From Deltaproteobacteria bacterium (GTDB taxonomy: Bacteria; Myxococcota_A; JAADFL01), in contig JAADFL010000073.1 in assembly GCA_013152945.1 (NCBI GenBank), positions 1-12,469 of the forward strand: DNA of 12,469 nucleotides, written 5' to 3'. Every line of letters begins with the position of its first letter. Positions within the stretch are counted from its first letter, which is position 1. Made by a program: the position numbers and the translations under genes. A model generated the notes under the pieces. The model worked only from the letters and a program-made list of their open reading frames with translations. It did not search any database and was not told the DNA's origin. Below are positions 546 to 9,860 of the stretch, piece by piece.

Positions 546-582
546 TTGACAGGGGCCTTGGGTATCAGTTATACTGATACCC
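546..582 (+). promoter_or_regulatory. Promoter with embedded operator for the nucleotidyltransferase pair
   Basis: A consensus -35 TTGACA (546-551) is followed after 18 bases by a -10 TATACT (570-575). A perfect inverted repeat, GGGTATCAGT (560-569) and ACTGATACCC (573-582) separated by TAT, covers the -10 box. The start codon at 586 is about 10 bases past the -10 with no Shine-Dalgarno sequence, so the transcript is probably leaderless or nearly so. The dyad looks like an autoregulatory operator; the winged-helix-like partner at 1115 is the natural candidate repressor (inference). Confidence 0.75.
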
Positions 583-585
583 AGC

Positions 586-1125
586 ATGAGACCACACGAG
601 ACCATAGCACGATTCGATAGCTTCCTGGCCGCACAAGGCTCGGTCTTCGAGGCTATCGTGATTGGGGGGACGGCTCTCGGACTTCCCGGAGTGATATCCC
701 GGCATACTCGGGACTGCGATGTACTTCAACCCAAGGTGCCGAATGACATCAAGGATGCGTCTGTGCGTTTTGCAGCAAAGGAGCGAGATGCAGGAAGGGA
801 TCTGCAGGACGATTGGTTCAATGATGAACCCGCATCAGTTGCAAACCTGCTTCCAAAGGGGTGGAAGAAACGGCTTCAGCTAGTTTTTCATGGTCGAGCT
901 CTTGTTTTACATACATTGGGTAGGGCGGACTTGCTGAAAATAAAGCTTTTCGCCTTGCGCGATCGGGCGACGGATTTGCCGGACTGCTTGGCGCTTGCAC
1001 CTTCGGCCGAAGAGCTTGCCGAGGCTCGACCATGGCTATACTTGCAGGACGCCAACCCATTATGGCCTTCGCACGTGGACCGTGTACTGGAAGACCTTGC
1101 AAGGAGGCTCGGCCATGGCCTTTAG
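586..1125 (+). CDS. Nucleotidyltransferase-like protein (DUF6036/AbiEii-like), candidate toxin-antitoxin component
   Basis: 179 residues. The N-terminal part has the nucleotidyltransferase signature: IVIGGTAL near residues 24-31, then R..TRDCDVL with two acidic residues, D43 and D45, in the D-x-D metal-binding position. A later segment, GRADLLKIKLFALRDRATD (about 112-130), is the helix typical of AbiEii and DUF6036-type enzymes. Such proteins transfer a nucleotide to RNA or protein targets and often act as toxins, or as antitoxins that modify a partner. The stop overlaps the next gene by 11 bases, implying translational coupling. The start follows a palindromic promoter with no ribosome-binding site. 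Family placement is from motif memory; which partner is toxic cannot be told from sequence. Confidence 0.8.
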   Translation: MRPHETIARFDSFLAAQGSVFEAIVIGGTALGLPGVISRHTRDCDVLQPKVPNDIKDASVRFAAKERDAGRDLQDDWFNDEPASVANLLPKGWKKRLQLVFHGRALVLHTLGRADLLKIKLFALRDRATDLPDCLALAPSAEELAEARPWLYLQDANPLWPSHVDRVLEDLARRLGHGL

Positions 1126-1888
1126 TCGTGCAGTCTTGCCTGCGGAGCGCCCGACACCGGGCCAGCTCTCCAGTGCCATGGCAGGTATTGGCATGCGCTT
1201 CGCCTCGAGGCCAGACTGGGGTGCCAACATCGAGGACACCCTGCTTTTCGCCTCCGAGGTCGGCATGGAATCCGATGACCTGCGGGTGCTGTCGGTCCTC
1301 GCCACCTGGCTGGGTGTGCATGCGGCTTGGGTCAATGCGGACCGGCTGGTTCGAATAGCCCGTGAGCACGAATCCGAGCGCGTACGCGCTTTTTGGAGCG
1401 CCGTGGGCTCTTGGCGTTCGCGGGACAGGCGATTTGCCCGCCTCGAGAAGGTCTACAATGGTCATAAACTCGACCTGCTAAGTGTGGGTACGGAGTTCCA
1501 GCTTTCACGCCGTGGTGAAGACCCTCGTTTCGCAGGCAGTGCCATGCGCGTGCCAGCCGGTGTGCTGCGCGACCGTCAAGATGACGTTCTCGATCCAGAC
1601 ACGTTGAGCCAGCGGCATTTGACCTATCGTTTCCGTGTGATTATCGGGCCGACCTACAGAGCGGACATGTGGGCAGCCCTGGAGCAAGACCCGACATTGT
1701 CCCCGGCCGAACTCGCCCGCCGGACCTACGGCTCATTCGCCACGGCATGGCAGGTGCGACGCGACTACATGGTGGTTCACGGCCCCGGCGTGGCAACAGG
1801 TAAAGCCCGGCTACCGTCTAATTTGGGTTCGAATACGGTGCGTTTGCCTGGAGATGTTTTTAGAACCGCACGGAGCAGGAGGCCCTGA
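1115..1888 (+). CDS. Winged-helix-like partner protein of the nucleotidyltransferase
   Basis: 257 residues from the ATG at 1115, chosen because AAGGAGG lies 7 bases upstream (1101-1107). The frame is open further upstream, but without such a signal and inside the preceding gene. Residues about 50-115 look helical. Residues about 184-220 (WAALEQDPTLSPAELARRTY and on through WQVRRDY) read as a helix-turn-helix with a recognition helix, so the protein may bind the inverted repeat at 560-582. By analogy with AbiE-type pairs it could be the antitoxin and repressor, although here it is the second gene. The last ~30 residues are low-complexity and overlap a convergent pseudogene, so the natural C terminus may have been altered by a junction near 1800-1860. 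Confidence 0.75.
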   Translation: MAFSRAVLPAERPTPGQLSSAMAGIGMRFASRPDWGANIEDTLLFASEVGMESDDLRVLSVLATWLGVHAAWVNADRLVRIAREHESERVRAFWSAVGSWRSRDRRFARLEKVYNGHKLDLLSVGTEFQLSRRGEDPRFAGSAMRVPAGVLRDRQDDVLDPDTLSQRHLTYRFRVIIGPTYRADMWAALEQDPTLSPAELARRTYGSFATAWQVRRDYMVVHGPGVATGKARLPSNLGSNTVRLPGDVFRTARSRRP

Positions 1889-2127
1889 CCGTGCCCAAGA
1901 GCACCTGATCCTTGCCCAACCGCTGGCGGCCGGGAGCGCCAAAGGCCTTCTTGGCGGAGAACAAATCCTTGCCGTTCACGTAAACGAATTCGAGCGTGTA
2001 ATTCCCGGGACCAGGATACTTGGCAAGCTTCAGCCCGGGCAGTATGCGCCAGCCGTCGGCAGGCATGAAGTAAGGATCCTTTTCGTACCAGGCCGCCTTG
2101 GGCCTTGACGCGACACTCCATAAGCAC
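1860..2127 (-). pseudogene. Decayed gene for a secreted protein of unknown function
   Basis: The minus strand ends with a well-formed C-terminal segment: KAAWYEKDPYFMPADGW, then ILPGLKLAKYPGPGNYTLEF, then VYVNGKDLFSAKKAFG, with a stop at 1860-1862. No start fits this frame. Immediately upstream the sense shifts to another frame that reads TEPLVLMECRVKA (about 2085-2125) before rejoining at KAAWYEK, so one frameshift near 2085-2095 is likely. Further upstream (about 2190-2330) the first frame contains a signal-peptide-like stretch, LLLPTASLAAALTCFWCTLV, but it is separated by a stop. The whole looks like a secreted-protein gene in ruins. I do not recognise the family. Confidence 0.5.
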
Positions 2128-2452
2128 CAGTGGCTCTGTATCGTTTGTTCTATTGGGAGACTTCTGCGCAGCCCCGTGACTTCTTACCTGCCGGGCCAGC
2201 GTCCTCTTTTACCAGGCATGTCATCCTCCCCAAGTCGGGCACATTCCGCTGCAACCAGAGTACACCAAAAACAGGTCAAGGCCGCGGCAAGACTTGCAGT
2301 TGGAAGCAAGAGCCTAAAGTAATGAACTGTTGGGCACGAACCGGGCTCCTTACCCATCTTCTCCACCTCGACTGTTGTTAGGGATGACTTCAAGCCTTTG
2401 TCGGCTGCTGACCATAGGATGCCTTCAACAGGTTGGACGTACAGCTTTTTGG
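2128..2452. other. Intergenic stretch with possible remnants of the minus-strand secreted-protein gene
   Basis: No intact gene. A minus-strand frame across 2184-2486 contains a hydrophobic signal-like run and lies in the same frame as the remnant at 1860-2066, so it may be the broken 5' part of that gene. CATCCTCCCCA near 2222 resembles the 81-140 repeat unit. Confidence 0.4.
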
Positions 2453-2480
2453 TTGACATTTTGCATTTGAAATGCATAAT
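2453..2480 (+). promoter_or_regulatory. Promoter with embedded palindrome for the first ATPase gene
   Basis: The -35 TTGACA (2453-2458) and -10 CATAAT (2475-2480) are 16 bases apart. A perfect 15-base dyad, TGCATTT-G-AAATGCA (2462-2476), fills the spacer and touches the -10. Binding of a repressor here would block transcription (inference). Expected transcription start is about 2487, giving a very short leader that just contains the AAGGA ribosome-binding site (2488-2492). Confidence 0.75.
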
Positions 2481-2500
2481 TTCCACTAAGGAAATTGTGC

Positions 2501-3751
2501 ATGGGTTCGACTTATATCAAGAGATCGCTGGAGCCGATCCTCGGGAAGGCAGCCTCCGAGTTCCCTGCCGTGCTACTTACCGGACCTCGCCAATCCGGCA
2601 AAACTACGCTATTGCAGCACCTCTTCGGCAAGCGTTACCACTACGTGTCACTGGAGCCACCGGATGTTCGAACGTCCGCTTTGGGAGATCCACGCAGTTT
2701 TCTCGAAATGTACCCACCTCCCGTGATATTCGATGAGGTGCAGTACGCTCCTGACCTGCTTCCCTACATCAAAGAGAGAATCGACGCTGACCGGCACAAG
2801 AGCGGGCGATTTTTGTTGACCGGCTCGCAGAACCTTTTGCTCATGGAAAAGGTGACCGAGTCGCTGGCAGGTCGTGCCGCGATACTTCGTCTCTTGCCCC
2901 TTTCAAGACGAGAGGCAGAGGGAAGACCGCGAATCTCCCTGCCATGGGAATCCAAACGCCCGGCTGTGCGCCGCACGCAGGCAGGTCGGTTATATCCAGA
3001 AAAACACCTTGCATACCGCGATCTTTGGACAGGATTCTTAAGAGGCGGGTACCCGGAGCTTGCCGCACATCCCGGCCGGGACATGAACCTATGGCATGGG
3101 AGTTACATCCAGACCTACCTCGAGCGGGACGTGCGCACGCTCCGGCAGGTCGGGGACCTGTCCCAGTTCCAGGATTTCCTCCGAACCCTGGCAGCCCGAA
3201 GTGCCCAACTCCTGAACTTGACCGATGTCGCCCGTGATCTCGGCGTAGCTGTCAACACGATAAAGGCATGGCTATCCGTGCTGGAAGCCACTTACCAGGT
3301 AATCGTGCTTCGCCCGTACTTCGCCAACGTCGGCAAGCGGCTCGTCAAAACACCGAAAGTTTATTTCACGGATGTCGGCACACTCTGCTACCTCGCCGGT
3401 CTGAAAGACCCCGAGCATGCGGCTTACGGTCCCATGGGAGGTGCTATCATGGAGACCGCTGTGCTCTCCGAGATCGTGAAAACCTTGACTCATCGTGGCA
3501 CAGACCCGCAGGTCTACTTCTGGCGGACCACGGCTGGAACGGAAGTGGATTTCGTGGTAGAGACCGGGGGAAATCTCGTTCCCATCGAGGTAAAGCTGTC
3601 AGCCACTCCACGCCCGGCCATGTCCTCTGCAATTAAGATATTCCAGAAGGATTTTGGAGATAAGGCCTTGCCGGGATACGTCGTGCATCCAGGCGATATA
3701 ATGCTTCCTATAAGCGCAGGTGTCACGGCCCTGCCCTTCTCGGAGCTGTAA
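2501..3751 (+). CDS. AAA ATPase with C-terminal DUF4143 (first of two tandem copies)
   Basis: 416 residues from the ATG at 2501, which has AAGGA 8 bases upstream; a TTG six bases earlier is less likely. Walker A is GPRQSGKT (28-35), Walker B is VIFDEVQ (75-81), and a sensor-like LLTGSQN lies at 105-111. A helix-turn-helix-like segment follows (about 238-262, LNLTDVARDLGVAVNTIKAW). The C-terminal DUF4143 region carries a PD-(D/E)XK-like signature: TEVDF (347-351) and IEVK (362-365). The length is normal for the family. The biochemical role of DUF4143 ATPases is poorly known; they are abundant in mobile and defence-rich regions. The gene is monocistronic with its own palindromic promoter. Confidence 0.92.
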   Translation: MGSTYIKRSLEPILGKAASEFPAVLLTGPRQSGKTTLLQHLFGKRYHYVSLEPPDVRTSALGDPRSFLEMYPPPVIFDEVQYAPDLLPYIKERIDADRHKSGRFLLTGSQNLLLMEKVTESLAGRAAILRLLPLSRREAEGRPRISLPWESKRPAVRRTQAGRLYPEKHLAYRDLWTGFLRGGYPELAAHPGRDMNLWHGSYIQTYLERDVRTLRQVGDLSQFQDFLRTLAARSAQLLNLTDVARDLGVAVNTIKAWLSVLEATYQVIVLRPYFANVGKRLVKTPKVYFTDVGTLCYLAGLKDPEHAAYGPMGGAIMETAVLSEIVKTLTHRGTDPQVYFWRTTAGTEVDFVVETGGNLVPIEVKLSATPRPAMSSAIKIFQKDFGDKALPGYVVHPGDIMLPISAGVTALPFSEL

Positions 3752-3770
3752 TCCCGGTTCCCTCGCATCC

Positions 3771-3803
3771 GTGCAAATCCCAAGTTGAAGTCTGAATTTG
3801 CAC
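3771..3803. repeat. Inverted repeat between the two ATPase genes
   Basis: GTGCAAAT (3771-3778) and ATTTGCAC (3796-3803) are perfect 8-base arms around a 17-base loop, 20 bases after the first ATPase stop. There is no U-tract, so it could be a weak mRNA end structure or an operator half-site pair. The rest of 3752-3957 shows nothing else recognisable. Confidence 0.5.
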
Positions 3804-3957
3804 AATCTAATCCCAGTGCGACCATTCCCGCCCTTGGCCGCGGCGCAGGAGAATCCAAGAGTGTAACGCCATGTTGGTGTCTACGGCATGGGCAACGTGC
3901 AATCTCATTTAGCAAGGGGAGCCGACTCTAGATAGCTTGCCGGGCGAGAAACAGTCC

Positions 3958-3985
3958 TTGCAAAATAGAAATTATTTTCTATAAT
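3958..3985 (+). promoter_or_regulatory. Promoter with embedded inverted repeat for the second ATPase gene (leaderless)
   Basis: The -35 TTGCAA (3958-3963) and a perfect -10 TATAAT (3980-3985) are 16 bases apart. The inverted repeat ATAGAAA (3965-3971), TTAT, TTTCTAT (3976-3982) overlaps the -10. The start codon at 3993 lies 7 bases past the -10, at the expected transcription start, and has no Shine-Dalgarno sequence, so a leaderless mRNA is predicted. Confidence 0.75.
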
Positions 3986-3992
3986 ACAAGAC

Positions 3993-5147
3993 ATGATAAG
4001 GCGGACAGTACAAAAGCTGATAGGAGAGCGCCTCAAGGCCTACCCGGCGGTGGCCATGGTGGGGCCGCGGCAGTGCGGAAAGACCACGCTGGCGCAGGCC
4101 ATGCGCGGGACCTACTTCGACCTGGAGCAGGAGTCCGACCGCCTGCGCCTGGACCTCGAGTGGGACGACCTCGTGGCCGGAAAGGATCTTCTCATCCTGG
4201 ACGAGGCCCAGTCATGGCCGGAGGTCTTTGTCCGCCTGCGGGGGGCGATCGACCAAGACCGCGGCCGCAAAGGACGCTTTTTGCTTCTCGGCTCCGTATC
4301 CCCATCGCTGATGACGCACGTGTCGGAATCCTTGGCAGGCCGGTTGTCACTGGTGGAGCTGACGCCGTTCCTGTTGTCGGAGTTGGAGACAAAGGCATCC
4401 TGCCGGCGGCACTGGCTGTGCGGGGGCTATCCCGAGGGCGGCGTGCTCGAACCCAAGCGGTACCCGCGGTGGCAAATCGATTACCTAGCGCTCCTGGCCC
4501 AGCGCGACCTTCCCATGTGGGGGCTTTCTGCAAAGCCGCAGGTGACGGACCGGCTTCTCCGTATGCTGGCCGCGCTGCACGGGCAGGTCTGGAACGCGGC
4601 CCAGGTGGGACAAAGCCTCGGGCTCTCTTATCACACGGTCAACAACTATCTCGATTATCTTATCGGGGCTTTCCTGCTCCGGCAGTTGCCGGCCTACCAA
4701 GCGAACATCCGCAAGCGCCTCGTCAAGAGGCCAAAGCTGTACTGGCGCGACAGCGGCCTCGTGCACGCGCTGCTCAACGTCCCGGACAAGCGCTCGTTGC
4801 TCGTGCAACCGTGGGTCGGAGCGAGTTGGGAGGGGTACGTCATCGAGCAAGCATTGGGGGCACTTTCCTCGCAGGGGCATAGCTTCAGCGCGTACTACTT
4901 CAGAACCCCGGACCAGTATGAACTGGACCTCGTCCTGGACTTCGGGAAGGAGATCTGGGCTGTCGAAGTCAAGCTAACATCTTCCCCGTCAACCGATGAT
5001 GTTTCGCGCCTGAACAAGGCCGCTGACATCATCAAGGCCTCGCAACGCTTCCTGGTCTCGCAGACAAAAAAAACAGCCGGAAACCAGAGGTGCCTTTCTT
5101 GTGACCTGTCGACATTTCTCGATCATCTCCGAGCGGCCAGATTGTAA
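3993..5147 (+). CDS. AAA ATPase with C-terminal DUF4143 (second tandem copy)
   Basis: 384 residues. Walker A is GPRQCGKT (24-31), Walker B is LLILDEAQ (66-73), and the sensor region is LLLGSVSPS (97-105). A helix-turn-helix-like stretch lies at about 201-222 (AAQVGQSLGLSYHTVNNYL). The nuclease-like C-terminal signature is YELDLV (309-314) and VEVK (324-327). The N terminus MIRRTVQK is typical of the family and fixes the start at 3993 despite the missing ribosome-binding site. It is clearly diverged from the upstream copy, so the two are not a recent duplication. The gene is GC-rich and has its own promoter and operator. What these ATPases act on is unknown. Confidence 0.92.
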   Translation: MIRRTVQKLIGERLKAYPAVAMVGPRQCGKTTLAQAMRGTYFDLEQESDRLRLDLEWDDLVAGKDLLILDEAQSWPEVFVRLRGAIDQDRGRKGRFLLLGSVSPSLMTHVSESLAGRLSLVELTPFLLSELETKASCRRHWLCGGYPEGGVLEPKRYPRWQIDYLALLAQRDLPMWGLSAKPQVTDRLLRMLAALHGQVWNAAQVGQSLGLSYHTVNNYLDYLIGAFLLRQLPAYQANIRKRLVKRPKLYWRDSGLVHALLNVPDKRSLLVQPWVGASWEGYVIEQALGALSSQGHSFSAYYFRTPDQYELDLVLDFGKEIWAVEVKLTSSPSTDDVSRLNKAADIIKASQRFLVSQTKKTAGNQRCLSCDLSTFLDHLRAARL

Positions 5148-5195: not shown

Positions 5196-5680
5196 TCATG
5201 CGAGCTTGCGCGCGAGCACGGTCAATTGGTAAGACATGACGTACAGGCTGTTCAACGTGGCTTCGAGCCGCCGCATGACCGAGGCCGGCCCAGCACTCAG
5301 CGTAACGTTCTTGGCAGCTTCCACAAGTTGGCCGATAACAGGGATCCTACGCCTGGAAGGCCAGTTCAATACCTGGACCCAATGCGACGCGTACCTGAAG
5401 TTCTCCCAGGTCTCCACAGGCCTCCATCCAGCGTCTTTCAAGAGCATCGTGAAGCCTGCCGCCGTGTATATCCTGACGTGGTCAGGGTTATGGCCGGGCC
5501 GTTCCAGTGGCAGGAAGAACAGGCCGTATCCTTTGGGCTTGGTATGCTCGGCCATGGCTCTCAAGGTTGCTGCATCGTCCGGCACGTGCTCCGGCACGTA
5601 TGAAGCAATGACCAGGTCGTAATCGCCGGGGCTCCCGACCCGGGTTGATTCCAGGCCCGGGGAAGAAACAACTGAATGCC
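5196..5680 (-). pseudogene. 5'-truncated class I SAM-dependent methyltransferase
   Basis: The frame is a methyltransferase C-terminal half: DYDLVIASYVPEHVPDD matches the motif around the second acidic loop (usually DLV.....EHV.D), then LRAMAEHTKPKGYGLFFLPL, then the C-terminal domain ending LTVLARKLA. The segment carrying the glycine-rich SAM-binding motif I is missing. Upstream the frame runs into the 3' end of the neighbouring gene (about 5680-5700) with no start. It therefore cannot bind SAM as encoded. The break lies at the boundary with the secreted-protein gene, consistent with a deletion or recombination junction within the cassette region. Confidence 0.8.
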
Positions 5681-5693: not shown

Positions 5694-6265
5694 CCATGGT
5701 CCTCGTACTTCCTCATCAACTTCAACAGTTCCTTAAGAATCTTGGTTCGCTCATCCGCTGCTGATTCGGGATACACTTTCAATGGAGGTGGGTCTGTCCG
5801 GTGAAGATAGATGCTGAACCGCGAGTTGAAATACATAGGTAGCGGATACTTGTCCTTTTCTCGGTTGACCATGCTGTACTTCGTCTTGCCGTCAATCTTG
5901 GGGTTGTCGACAATCTTCCTGATGGCCTTGTCACGCTTCGCTTTCAGGTCAGCGTACTGCTCATCCGTCATACGCTCTTTGAACACGAGAATGATGAGAT
6001 AGTCTGTCTTTCGACCAAACTCTCGTAAGAGGTCCTCAAGCTCCAACGGTGGCAGGCTGATCGGGTTGAGAAGAGTAATTTGCTCGTCACGGGCGATGAC
6101 GATGGAACGTGCGTCGGCCTTGACTGTCCAGCCTGCCGGGATGATGGGTTGAAGCGCAGTAACTATCTCGGAAGGAAACACGGGCGGGCGTGTCTTGGCC
6201 GCAACGGTAGTGACTGCCGCCATAATCAAGCATATGACTAGAGACCGCCTCGTCCTTATCACCAC
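5687..6265 (-). CDS. Secreted protein of unknown function (integron cassette gene)
   Basis: 192 residues. The N terminus is a signal peptide: basic VIRTRR, hydrophobic SLVICLIMAAVTTV, and a cleavage site near AA-K at about 23-24. The mature part is charged, with an ITLLNPISLPPLELEDLLRE segment (63-82), an IILVFKERMTDEQY stretch (91-104) and a C-terminal coiled helix. I do not recognise the family. The start is a GTG (6265), followed by a second GTG, and it abuts the GTT of the attC site at 6262-6268, as cassette genes often do. A weak AGGTGA about 10 bases upstream lies inside the attC. It is the second minus-strand cassette after mazEF. No attC of the same family was found after it. Confidence 0.7.
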   Translation of the reverse strand: MVIRTRRSLVICLIMAAVTTVAAKTRPPVFPSEIVTALQPIIPAGWTVKADARSIVIARDEQITLLNPISLPPLELEDLLREFGRKTDYLIILVFKERMTDEQYADLKAKRDKAIRKIVDNPKIDGKTKYSMVNREKDKYPLPMYFNSRFSIYLHRTDPPPLKVYPESAADERTKILKELLKLMRKYEDHGN

Positions 6266-6345
6266 AACAGTGAAGTCACCTGCCGCCGTGGAGCAAGCCC
6301 GAAGGGCGCAGCAGAATGGTGGTCAGGTGAACTGACTGGTTCTGC
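6262..6345 (-). repeat. Integron attC site A
   Basis: Read on the minus strand: R'' GCAGAAC (6345-6339), a 5-base spacer, L'' AGTTCACCTG, a central region, L' CAGGTGACT, a 5-base spacer, and R' GTTGTGG (6268-6262). L'' has one unpaired base (T) relative to L', the extrahelical base expected of attC. The inner sequence CACCTGACCAC.ATTC.GCTG is shared with the site at 8453-8525. It lies 1 base after the restored mazF stop (6347-6349) and directly before the next gene's start. Confidence 0.85.
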
Positions 6346-6346
6346 C

Positions 6347-6668
6347 TTAAAGATCCAGCTGGATCGTGATAGCTCGGCCTATACCTTCCATCTCAGTGGA
6401 AGAACGATCCTGCCGGATTGATTAGCCGCTTTTTGCTCACCGTTGTAAGCTGATCGGCCATAGCTTTTGCCTTTTTCCCACGAAAAGTCACATATGTTTC
6501 GCTTGGGTAGAGTTTACTAACACTACTAGTCAGGGGCACGACTTGGACTCTATTAAGGAACTGGTTGGCAGCATCATTGCTTACGATGACCGCCGGTCGC
6601 TGCTTGTGGATTTCACCACCGATGGAAGGGTCAAAATTTATCCACCACACATCACCTCTCTTCATCAT
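6347..6668 (-). pseudogene. mazF: MazF/PemK-family toxin, frameshifted near the C terminus
   Basis: MazF-like endoribonuclease, normally cutting mRNA. GDVWWINFDP (5-14), RPAVIVSND (24-32, with catalytic-type R24), VVPLTSS (43-49, with T47) and ADQLTTVSKKRL (71-82) are all present. In this frame the protein ends early, after AGSFFH, at residue 91 (stop at 6393). One base later the other frame continues SSTEMEGIGRAITIQLDL with a stop at 6347-6349, which is the usual MazF C-terminal helix. One extra base near 6403-6408 therefore splits the gene. The ATG at 6668 has GGAG upstream and overlaps the antitoxin stop by 17 bases. The catalytic core is intact, so partial activity is possible; alternatively the frameshift is a sequencing error. 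Confidence 0.88.
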
Positions 6669-6882
6669 TTATATCTCCAAATGTGCCCTCAGCCCACTCA
6701 AGAGCCTCAGATTCCCGGACCTGATCAGCAGACATCTCTTTATATGCAGCATATATATCTCTCTTGACAACATGCGGACGAACTAACTCTTGGATAAAAC
6801 GACTGATTTTTCGTGGCCCTATAACTGTCCGTAATCCGTTATAGATCTCCTCATCTATGGTCAATGTAAGTTTCCTTTGCAT
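6652..6882 (-). CDS. mazE: MazE-like ribbon-helix-helix antitoxin
   Basis: 76 residues from the ATG at 6882, with a GAGGAGG ribosome-binding site 8 bases upstream. The N-terminal MQRKLTLTIDEEIYNGLRTV is a ribbon-helix-helix DNA-binding fold, and PRKISRFIQELVRPHVV follows as in known MazE/CopG-type partners of MazF. The acidic C-terminal tail (EALEWAEGTFGDINDEER) would wrap the toxin. It neutralises MazF and likely represses its own promoter at the two palindromes at 6903-6926. A longer reading from 6996 is possible but lacks support and would cross the promoter. Confidence 0.88.
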   Translation of the reverse strand: MQRKLTLTIDEEIYNGLRTVIGPRKISRFIQELVRPHVVKRDIYAAYKEMSADQVRESEALEWAEGTFGDINDEER

Positions 6883-6902
6883 CACAAACACCTCCTCGAG
6901 AG

Positions 6903-6939
6903 TTATACGTATAATACACGTGTATTGTTTATATGTCAA
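6903..6939 (-). promoter_or_regulatory. mazEF promoter with two adjoining palindromes
   Basis: On the minus strand, the -35 TTGACA (6939-6934) and -10 TATTAT (6916-6911) are 17 bases apart. Two perfect palindromes, TTATACGTATAA (6903-6914) and AATACACGTGTATT (6913-6926), overlap by two bases and cover the -10. Tandem symmetric sites are typical of ribbon-helix-helix autorepressors. The promoter is inside the cassette, so the pair does not depend on an integron promoter. Confidence 0.85.
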
Positions 6940-6963
6940 GGAGCTATGAATATTTTCTAAGGG

Positions 6964-6970
6964 GCAGAAC
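6964..6970 (-). repeat. Start boundary of the mazEF cassette (G^TTCTGC)
   Basis: The minus strand reads GTTCTGC here, exactly complementary to the R'' box GCAGAAC of attC site A. In integron cassettes the first bases of the cassette and R'' come from one attC arm pair, so this marks the cassette start. The cassette would be about 702 bases (6268-6969). AAGGAG directly precedes the crossover, as it does at 7477. Confidence 0.75.
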
Positions 6971-6988
6971 TCCTTGTTAGCCCCCAGC

Positions 6989-7007
6989 CTTCCCACCCAG
7001 GTTGATT
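6989..7007 (-). repeat. Dispersed ~20-bp motif, copy 4
   Basis: CTTCCCACCCAGGTTGATT, about 20 bases from the mazEF cassette boundary. Confidence 0.5.
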
Positions 7008-7049
7008 TTCAAGGCATCAAGAACATGCTGTCATTTCATGGAGTTGTAG

Positions 7050-7069
7050 GGGCGGTTCGCGAACCGCCC
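7050..7069. repeat. REP-like perfect palindrome
   Basis: GGGCGGTTCGCGAACCGCCC is a perfect 20-base palindrome preceded by GTAG. Palindromes of this GTAGGGGCGG type recur as extragenic repeats in many environmental bacterial genomes. No U-tract is present. Confidence 0.75.
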
Positions 7070-7239
7070 ATGCGAGATTCAGTACAGACAATTTGTATTT
7101 TTGTCTGCCGGACCAGGTCGGCTTTCCACCTAAAACGGCCTGATACGCCCGGCAATCATATCGTGCAGAGTCCCGGTTTTTTCACTCCTTATGATTTTTT
7201 GATATCACGCCTATATCCGGCCCCCGAAAAATCAACCAC

Positions 7240-7265
7240 GGAAGGGAGAATCCGGAAGGGAGAAT
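7240..7265. repeat. Short direct repeat, 14-base period
   Basis: GGAAGGGAGAAT occurs at 7240-7251 and again at 7254-7265. No associated function is seen. Confidence 0.7.
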
Positions 7266-7382
7266 TGCTCAGCATAACCACCAAGTTTCCGATCAAGTTC
7301 TCCCTCTCCATAACACCAAAATACTCATGTTATGTAATTGGCAACCTGATGCTGATTAAATGATTTTTCCTTGGATTATCCG

Positions 7383-7411
7383 TTGACTATGGGGGATGGG
7401 AGTTATATAAA
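7383..7411 (+). promoter_or_regulatory. Promoter reading into the nuclease cassette
   Basis: TTGACT (7383-7388) and TATAAA (7406-7411) are separated by 17 bases. It lies outside the cassette boundary, so it would act like an integron cassette promoter (inference). Expected leader to the start at 7497 is about 80 bases. Confidence 0.55.
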
Positions 7412-7447
7412 GATGTCTAGTTTCCTGGATTGACAAGGACTCGTACC

Positions 7448-7470
7448 GGATAAACGGAGATTGGGTAGAA
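7448..7470 (+). repeat. Left arm of the ~22-bp inverted repeat flanking the nuclease cassette
   Basis: It begins GGATAAACGGAG and ends ATTGGGTAGAA. Its reverse complement matches 8520-8541 except for one substitution/insertion in the middle. Confidence 0.85.
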
Positions 7471-7476
7471 TAAGGA

Positions 7477-7483
7477 GTTATTT
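7477..7483 (+). repeat. Probable start boundary of the nuclease cassette (G^TTATTT)
   Basis: GTTATTT matches the complement of attC site B's R'' (ACATAAC) at six of seven bases. It is preceded by AAGGAG, as at the mazEF boundary. The predicted cassette is 7478-8519. Confidence 0.55.
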
Positions 7484-7496
7484 GAAGGAAAAAATT

Positions 7497-8436
7497 ATGC
7501 AAGAAGATAAGTTATTTCAAATTTTGGAAAGAATTGCAGTTGCTCTTGAAAAAATTGCACTCAATATCACCACCAATCATATCTCCTGTTCTCAAATATC
7601 AGAAAAAAAGACGAAAGATACAGAAATAGAAAAAATAAGCGAAGATTTTTTTATAAATGATATATCTGAAATTGAGGAATTTTTGAATTCAAAAGGAGTA
7701 TCCATAAAAGTAATAAAAAAAGAAGATGATGCTGATGAGATTTTAGACAATATAGCATTTTTTATGGGAAATAGATATAAATATATCAAAAAATTATATT
7801 CATTAATAAAGAGAAACCTTAATTCTGGCAGAAGTTTCAAACTAGATTTAAAATTCAACTCAAGAAGAAATAGCTTCAGTTACCCAACTATGCACTAACT
7901 TGCATCAAATAGCTTTTCTTGAAGAATATAAATATCTTAAATCTCCAAAATTTTATCTTTTTGCAAAAGTAAATAGTATACCAAGAGCATTAAATTTCTT
8001 CTCTGGCGGGTGGCTTGAACGATATGTCAAGACCACAATAGAAGAGTCTATAAAACTAGCTTCGCATCCTATAAAGCTGAACTATTCTTATCTTAAAAAT
8101 CCACAAATTGTTTTACCAAATGGTAATGATTTTGAATTAGATATAATCTATAAAATAGAAGATGAAATTTTTTGGTGTGAAGCAAAATCAGGTGATTACC
8201 AGAAATATGTTCAGAAGTATTCTAATATGTCAAAATTGCTTAATATAGATGAAGATCATTCTTTTATGATATTAACTGATATATCTGAAGGTGGTGCAAA
8301 GGCATTAAAAAGCATATTTAAAATGAATGTGATTAGTATAGATGATTTTTATAATGTATTTAGCTCAGAGATAATGAGAATTAAGGCTAAAATACATGAT
8401 GAATATGAAAAAGATTCTGGATTCTGTGAAAATTGA
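7497..8436 (+). pseudogene. PD-(D/E)XK nuclease (DUF1887/Card1-like nuclease domain), split by a frameshift
   Basis: The ATG at 7497 has GAAGGA 8 bases upstream. The first frame encodes a helical N terminus (LFQILERIAVALEKIAL), an acidic middle and ends at 7898. The second frame takes over about 7855, reading STQEEIASVTQLCTNLHQIA and on to 8436. Removing one base from the A-run at 7850-7853 restores one frame of 312 residues. The C-terminal part has the motifs GGWLERYV (conserved E), FELDII (conserved D) and WCEAKSG (E-x-K), the PD-(D/E)XK order seen in DUF1887 and Card1/Can2 nucleases. No CARF sensor is visible, so the input signal is unknown. The gene is far more AT-rich than its neighbours, indicating a foreign origin, and attC site B follows it. 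A sequencing error could mimic the frameshift. Confidence 0.75.
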
Positions 8437-8452
8437 AAGTGATCAAAATATC

Positions 8453-8525
8453 ACATAACAAGGTGCTCCACCTGACCACTATTCCGCTGGCGCTCCATAG
8501 CGGCAGGTGAGCTTGGTCGTTCTAC
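8453..8525 (+). repeat. Integron attC site B
   Basis: R'' ACATAAC (8453-8459), spacer AAGGT, L'' GCTCCACCTG, a central hairpin (CCGCT with AGCGG), L' CAGGTGAGC, spacer TTGGTC, and R' GTTCTAC (8519-8525). L'' has one extra C relative to L', at the same position as in site A. It starts 16 bases after the nuclease stop. The inner sequence is shared with site A in the same orientation relative to the preceding gene. Confidence 0.85.
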
Positions 8526-8541
8526 CCAATCTCCCTTATCC
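8520..8541 (-). repeat. Right arm of the ~22-bp inverted repeat flanking the nuclease cassette
   Basis: It begins TTCTACCCAATC at the two T's of the attC R' box, exactly at the predicted G^TT crossover, and ends CTTATCC. It matches the left arm at 7448-7470 in inverted orientation. Confidence 0.85.
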
Positions 8542-8696: not shown

Positions 8697-9593
8697 ATGA
8701 ATCTGGCGCATAGAAGCTTTGAGCGGATACTCGATGGTTATGCCGAGTTTCTGCGGAAGCGACAACTGGCACCGCCCAAGCATCAGCCACACTTGGTTCG
8801 CTGGGTGCGGGAGTTCCTGGTCTTCGCGATGGAGCACCCCGGCCACACCTTTGAGCAAACGCTGGACATGTTCCTGGCCGCCTTGGAAGAACAAACCGGC
8901 GTCAAGCCATGGCAGATCCGACAGGCAATGGATGCGGTGCGTATCTATCGGCAGCAGTATCGAGAGGGAGCTCATGAAGCAGGTGAAGATGCATCAAAGA
9001 AAACCTGGGCTGGCAATGAGGATGACCTGCTTGCACGGACGCGGGAGATCCTACGCCTGCGCCACTACGCCAGAAGCACAGAGAAAACCTATCTGAATTG
9101 GGTGCGCCGGTTTCTCTCATATCGCAAACGAGCCGGCCTGACAGGCGATCCCACTGCCGCAGACGTTAAGGCATTCCTCACCCGCCTCGCCATGGTCGAA
9201 AGAGTAAGCGCTTCCACGCAGAATCAGGCATTCAGCGCGTTGCTGCTTCTGTTCAGGGAAGTCTTGCGCCGGGATCTCGAAGAAATGGAGCAAACCGTGC
9301 GCGCCAAACGGGGGCGCAGGCTTCCGACAGTCTTATCGGTCAGTGAAGTGCAGACACTGCTGAACGCTGTGGAGTCTGAGTACAAGTTGATGGTGAAGCT
9401 GCTCTACGGGAGCGGATTGCGCTTGATGGAGCTGCTTCGCCTTCGGGTGAAGGACATAGACTTCGACGCGGGATTGATAACCGTGCGTGGCGGGAAGGGA
9501 GACAAGGACCGGACGACCCTGCTACCGGAATCGTTGCGCGGAGAACTGCGCGCCCATCTGGCAAAGGTACGTGAATGGCATAAGGCCGATCTT
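8697..9593 (+). pseudogene. intI: Integron integrase, C-terminally truncated
   Basis: Tyrosine recombinase of the integron type. From the ATG at 8697 (AGGA upstream), residues 1-90 form an extra N-terminal domain found in longer environmental integron integrases. Residues about 113-195 are the core-binding domain (RSTEKTYLNWVRRFLSY, ASTQNQAFSALLLLFREVL). The catalytic domain starts with the box I arginine in GSGLRLMELLRLR (R242) and has the lysine region GGKGDKDRTTLLP (K267). Homology stops after HKADL (residue 299, position 9593). The H-x-x-R box and the nucleophilic tyrosine are missing, so it cannot recombine DNA. The frame stays open to 9800 but the rest is unrelated. The break coincides with copy 5 of the dispersed motif. 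Its orientation is away from the minus-strand cassettes, as in a standard integron. Confidence 0.9.
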
Positions 9594-9598
9594 AAGCT

Positions 9599-9617
9599 CA
9601 CCCCACCCAGGTTGAGC
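9599..9617 (-). repeat. Dispersed ~20-bp motif, copy 5, at the integrase break
   Basis: CACCCCACCCAGGTTGAGC, starting 5 bases after integrase homology ends. With copy 6 it bounds a ~260-base segment in inverted orientation. Confidence 0.6.
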
Positions 9618-9840
9618 CCGCCTCTTCCAAAATCCACCGTACTTTCAGGCAATTATAGCGCCGCCATCACGAGGTACACCTGGTCCAGGCCCAGTTCAGA
9701 TGCCCAAAGCCGCCATGCCGCTGCTGCCCTACCCGCCCGATGTCACGTTGGCCTGGCATCTAAAGGCACTGTCCTAGACGTGCCATCTCGTTTGGCCTGA
9801 ATGAATCAGCCGTAATTACAATATGCTGGAAGCAACGAAA
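9618..9840. other. Segment between inverted motif copies
   Basis: No gene is supported; the integrase frame runs through part of it without homology. It may be the inside of a small decayed mobile element or an insertion remnant. Confidence 0.35.
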
Positions 9841-9860
9841 AGCTCAACCTGGATGGGGAG
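9841..9860 (+). repeat. Dispersed ~20-bp motif, copy 6
   Basis: AGCTCAACCTGGATGGGGAG, inverted relative to copy 5 and adjoining the end of the transposase remnant. Confidence 0.6.

Follow-up and report, generated by a model that had tools for sequence, protein, structure and literature searches.

An integron module in the window (the whole 12,469-nt stretch of DNA analysed here), complete with its own attI, was probably captured backwards by the attI of another integron, attI_R, which would account for a nuclease cassette that faces the integrase gene, intI_R. Two attI sites, the rejoining halves of one of them, the cassette boundaries, direct G^TT junctions and a truncated integrase gene can all be read directly from the window. 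The preliminary description regarded the nuclease cassette as inverted relative to the array. Its ORFs do lie on the plus strand, towards intI_R, with the mazEF and secreted-protein ORFs on the minus strand, but the cassette is not reversed with respect to its own attI, and what is reversed relative to intI_R is the whole block that includes the nuclease, not the nuclease cassette by itself.

The cassette had been described as enclosed by inverted arms of ~22 bp (7448–7470 and 8520–8541). The inverted match is real, with 17 of 18 bases identical between 7453–7470 and 8520–8537, and grows outward by only a few bases when one gap is allowed (CGGATAAACGGAGATTGGGTAGAA and CGGATAAGGGAGATTGGGTAGAA), but it does not enclose the segment, whose true edges lie at 6976^6977 and 8519^8520. 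By length alone the pair stands out only slightly: 7 of 60 Markov-simulated windows contained an inverted 18-mer with no more than one mismatch. Its weight derives from homology rather than length. The arms are the L-side cores of two attI sites facing each other, not inversion repeats. The proposed genome search for other copies of the arm found its core at a few other loci, all of them attI-like. A common dispersed repeat was considered as the identity of the arm and rejected on this distribution, the truly dispersed sequence being the neighbouring MITE-like element. An Rfam scan returned nothing at the gathering cut-off.

The left arm runs on inward as an intact attI (GGTAGAATAAGGAG^TT), here named attI_L (7447–7479, plus strand, crossover 7477^7478), which is common to the window and to contig C95 of the same genome, with identity at 33 of 33 positions. 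The C95 site reads CGGATAAACGGAGATTGGGTAGAATAAGGAG^TTAGCAT, and its integron is ordered as an intI 5′ remnant (MNRAERELDRKLGVYAE...), attI, a DUF2726-type cassette, attC, an OLD/AAA-type cassette and attC. Window positions 6994–7480, a stretch that takes in both the attI crossover and the inner edge of the left arm, are collinear with C95 7199–6642 (82% over 558 aligned columns), and the nuclease is therefore not flipped relative to the left arm. The 5′-end remnant of a second intI, at 7268–7312 on the minus strand, aligns with that of C95, and shows an inverted match of 83% to the start of intI_R at 8719–8747.

The nuclease cassette (7478–8519, plus strand) has the normal orientation with respect to attI_L, and its start, GTTATTTG, pairs at seven of eight positions with the R″ sequence CACATAAC. 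Its gene (7497–8436, plus strand) is read in two overlapping frames, 7497–7898 and 7852–8436, with an apparent frameshift. Judged by its sequence matches, the C-terminal part of the product resembles CARF-associated PD-(D/E)xK nucleases, with PADLOC CARF-PD-(D/E)xK/Csx1 matches at about 1e-6 and Pfam Card1_endonuc at only E 0.08. The attC of this cassette (8450–8521, plus strand) is 93% identical over 67 nt to C95 3524–3458. The mazEF cassette residing in attI_R (6268–6969, minus strand) starts with TTCTGCC at 6969, ends at the attC G at 6268, and has a PemK/MazF Pfam match of 3e-22; its start, GTTCTGCC, pairs at all eight positions with the R″ of its attC, GGCAGAAC. That attC (6265–6348, minus strand) was matched by covariance model R1 at E 1.5e-26, the sequence itself being among the four used to build the model. 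The attC hairpins of both cassettes fold.

From its sequence, attI_R is recognisable as a second attI beside intI_R, although split. A profile built from eleven attI sites, with the right arm left out, gave as its three best matches in the window 7447–7479 (E 4.7e-11), 8540–8518 on the minus strand (E 1.1e-5) and 6978–6968 on the minus strand (E 0.41). The second of these is the L-side half of attI_R, formed by the right arm (8518–8541, minus strand; profile positions 4–26), and the third its R-side part (6968–6978, minus strand; profile positions 23–33), which consists of the 7-bp centre CAAGGAG (6976–6970) followed by ^TT. The R-side half-site is weak by itself, but is on the same strand as, and in the right order with, 8540–8518; as 6968–6976 it ranks best among about 8500 possible left partners, and the mazEF cassette starts flush with it. 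When 6976 is joined to 8520, a full attI core is restored, which on the minus strand reads GCGGATAAGGGAGATTGGGTAGAA followed directly by CAAGGAG^TTCTGCC. The rejoined centre, GAACAAGGAG, which did not enter into the prediction, is found at C32, at C146 and in a further genome from the phylum. The L-box border is AAC in the rejoined attI_R, as against AAT in attI_L and C95. Neither an empty, contiguous attI_R (GGTAGAACAAGGAG^TTCTGCC; GGTAGAACAAGGAGTTCTGCCCC) nor a free circle was found. The earlier suggestion that the cassette might sit between two attI-like halves came close, as the halves of a split attI lie at 8520 and 6968–6978, with a second, intact attI inside the insert.

Further support for the identity of the core comes from other genomes. 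The 20-mer AGATTGGGTAGAAYAAGGAG, searched as a DNA pattern in the GTDB species genomes, was found at four places, two of them within one Blastocatellia MAG. At the Blastocatellia locus L091, some 160 bp separate it from the beginning of a divergent intI, and attC-bearing cassettes come after the 20-mer; this intI is 72% identical to intI_R over 299 residues, and is itself split into several reading frames. The other Blastocatellia copy adjoins a 93-residue intI match, and the copies in Zixibacteria and Runella have no intI match beside them, that in Runella probably being due to chance. The position of the 20-mer beside a divergent, related intI in L091 identifies the core as the attI belonging to this lineage of integrases. 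In L091 (reverse strand, 552–4051) the same array also holds a second intI remnant and attI (3141–3420) in tandem, behind a transposase-like gene. A search for related loci based on intI_R, in genome and viral contigs, confirmed no relative.

Between the two halves of attI_R lies the reversed module of 1543 bp (6977–8519, plus strand), with G^TT on the plus strand at both ends and flanks that rejoin to a full attI. It begins TTAGCCCCC, ends ...GGTCG, and contains a 13-nt stub, a MITE-like repeat, the intI remnant, attI_L and the nuclease cassette. The stub (TTAGCCCCCAGCC; 6977–6989, plus strand), located between junction and repeat, is of the R′ type GTTAGCC, also seen at a C95 cassette. The MITE-like dispersed repeat (6990–7262, minus strand) has imperfect terminal inverted repeats and about 40 matches in the genome. 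At the far end, the attC crossover G^TT (8519^8520) marks the exact start of the right arm, as the preliminary description stated. Both junctions are direct on the plus strand, in keeping with insertion or excision; inversion between two sites would leave the junctions inverted. In a check for misassembly, no exact repeat longer than 10 nt within the window spanned the junctions, and exact runs shared between the window and other loci measured at most 59 nt.

An attI comprises an L box and an R box with a short centre between them, and attC usually joins at the R box. In the proposed capture, a circle comprising the short stub, the MITE-like repeat, the intI 5′ remnant, attI_L, the nuclease cassette and its attC would have been inserted into attI_R by the integrase, with GTAGAA^CAAGGAG, the top-strand crossover of the L box, taking the place of the R-box crossover CAAGGAG^TT that is ordinarily used. 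Such an event would have split attI_R, leaving the L half with intI_R at 8520, and the 7-bp centre and R half with mazEF at 6968–6976. Use of the L side would reverse the polarity, such that the module faces intI_R as a whole, along with a nuclease that is correctly oriented within it. Direct repeat copies on either side of an attI array, like those on C95, may have recombined to release the circle; we infer this origin, as well as the circular form of the module and the L-box join by the integrase. The AAC at the L-box border of attI_R is the R-box crossover triplet, and may have made the L site usable. IntI1 is known to cut attI1 at the L box too, and rare attC × attI L-box events have been seen in the laboratory (PMC4792948), at 0.16–0.47%, with the attC top strand and at a crossover other than the A/C step (PMC4792948).

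Several points count against capture at the L box: the rarity of the laboratory events, with their use of the attC top strand and their different crossover; the weakness of the R-side half-site by itself; the failure to find an empty attI_R or a free circle; and the left end of the insert, only 13 bp away from a repeat that looks mobile and could have moved DNA without an integrase. Transposition, or illegitimate recombination, linked to the MITE-like repeat might then have joined the block, its G^TT ends being coincidental or left over from a truncated attC; in a C95 attC, too, the R″ region reads GCTAACAAG. This is an unlikely history, as both junctions coincide exactly with G^TT and rejoining the flanks yields an attI whose centre occurs elsewhere, while GGCTAAC is simply the complement of G^TTAGCC in the insert. 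A chimera comparison of the window repeat with two C95 copies gave a pattern that did not discriminate. Less probable still is that the module entered attI_R normally, through the R box, and was turned round by a later inversion. Insertion at the R box is the common reaction, and attI × attI inversion by IntI1 is known (PMC4792948), but this sequence of events predicts CAAGGAG on the intI side, or the opposite orientation on the mazEF side, whereas the 7-bp centre has stayed beside mazEF, as CTCCTTG on the plus strand, with none at 8520.

The flip originally put forward, in which the segment between the arms turns by homologous or site-specific recombination at the inverted repeats, is the hardest to sustain and very improbable. 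It draws on the inverted arms, on the cassette facing intI_R, and on laboratory work in which two intact inverted attI1 sites invert the intervening DNA (PMC4792948). However, the left arm runs without a break into an intact attI, and its continuity with C95 holds on either side of the arm's edge, indicating that the present orientation is ancestral there; attI_R is split, hence no pair of intact inverted attI sites exists; and the arm core recurs only at attI-like loci. The junctions 6976^6977 and 8519^8520 are direct, whereas inverted recombination sites bound an invertible segment. The integrase gene is also truncated, and a genome search found no intact integron integrase, in an assembly that is 94% complete and from which one could be missing.

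The truncated gene, intI_R (8697–9599, plus strand), lacks the C-terminal part of an integron integrase, matching TIGR02249 at positions 2–214 of 315 (1.4e-67; 228 bits, below the cut-off of 265). Two other tyrosine recombinases are present in the genome, with low scores. As intI_R has lost its C-terminus, no flipping is expected now, and the locus is probably frozen. At the point of truncation lies a 258-bp element with 17-nt terminal inverted repeats (9601–9858, strand undefined); its ends, like CCCCACCCAGGTTGA, resemble those of the MITE-like repeat around a different interior, and similar ends occur at 5634–5652, 107–150 and 384–402. Ahead of the usual integron integrase domain, intI_R carries an N-terminal stretch of ~110 residues (window 8697–9030); relatives in the phylum match only past this stretch, and Blastocatellia homologues match from residue 1. 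Elsewhere in the window, neighbouring ORFs at 2495–3751 and 3993–5147 look, by reading only, like AAA ATPases of the DUF4143 type that are related to each other, with no NCBIfam match.

The genome contains about nine attI-like sites, mostly without an integrase: two in the window (contig C73; 7447 and 8518), two on C82 (19005 and 20345), and one each on C95 (6643), C66 (47741), C32 (31551), C146 (17255) and C93 (1078). Near these sites, all MITE-like copies that were found share one orientation with respect to attI, except for a terminal-repeat match of 24 nt in the element located where intI_R ends. The copies end roughly 100–270 bp upstream of attI and/or start 0.7–3.2 kb downstream, and a few more lie farther out. 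They occur on both sides of the integron piece at C95, C93 and C82, and on one side at C66, C32, C146 and the window module. On C82 (locus L082, 6861–9231), two units of attI and gene stand in tandem, with a repeat before, between and after them; the first gene begins with GTTGTGCC and has a matching R″, GGCACAAC, after it, but the attC looks truncated. On C95 (locus L016, 7842–8662), HEPN/MNT toxin-antitoxin-like genes, identified by reading only, lie between two more repeat copies. This arrangement suggests that modules of repeat, attI and cassette have multiplied without an integrase of their own. A more tentative possibility is that attI itself is mobile: integrase-less modules of repeat, intI remnant/promoter, attI and cassette might have multiplied in the genome, excise as circles by recombination of the direct repeats on their flanks, and enter integrons as oversized cassettes of either polarity.

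Recombination at the L box of attI is known from laboratory assays, with attC only as a rare side reaction, and the window holds what looks like a natural, base-precise product of it. The case illustrates how a cassette can become reversed without any flip. Here the docking site, attI, lies inside the unit inserted along with its cassette, in a genome with about nine attI-like sites and one truncated integrase gene, making the mobility of attI platforms directly testable.

Among known systems, the locus is most readily compared with a chromosomal integron, a class whose decayed forms are In0- or CALIN-like: intI is divergent from the array, attI adjoins it, and the cassettes show R″/R′ pairing and attC hairpins. 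It differs in having two attI platforms that face each other, one nested in the other, and a truncated integrase. With attI1 L-box/top-strand recombination by IntI1 (PMC4792948), it shares an L-side crossover ~7 bp from the R crossover, an AAC border and reversed polarity; those events were obtained in the laboratory, are rare with attC, and involve the attC top strand, whereas here a natural product, with an A^C step, is proposed from sequence. As in Delta-attI-type gene cassettes (PMC12901181), an attI sequence travels in the array within a moving unit, but there a short, partial attI replaces the 3′ attC, whereas here the nuclease gene is preceded by a complete attI and an intI remnant, and keeps an attC of its own (8450–8521). 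MITE-flanked integrons, such as that of Acinetobacter johnsonii (PMC3934969), carry one miniature inverted-repeat element at both ends of integron pieces, an arrangement seen here at C95, C93 and C82, with the repeat on one side only at the window module, C66, C32 and C146; in contrast, the present genome has its attI sites, mostly without an integrase, in about nine places, near a repeat in fixed orientation.
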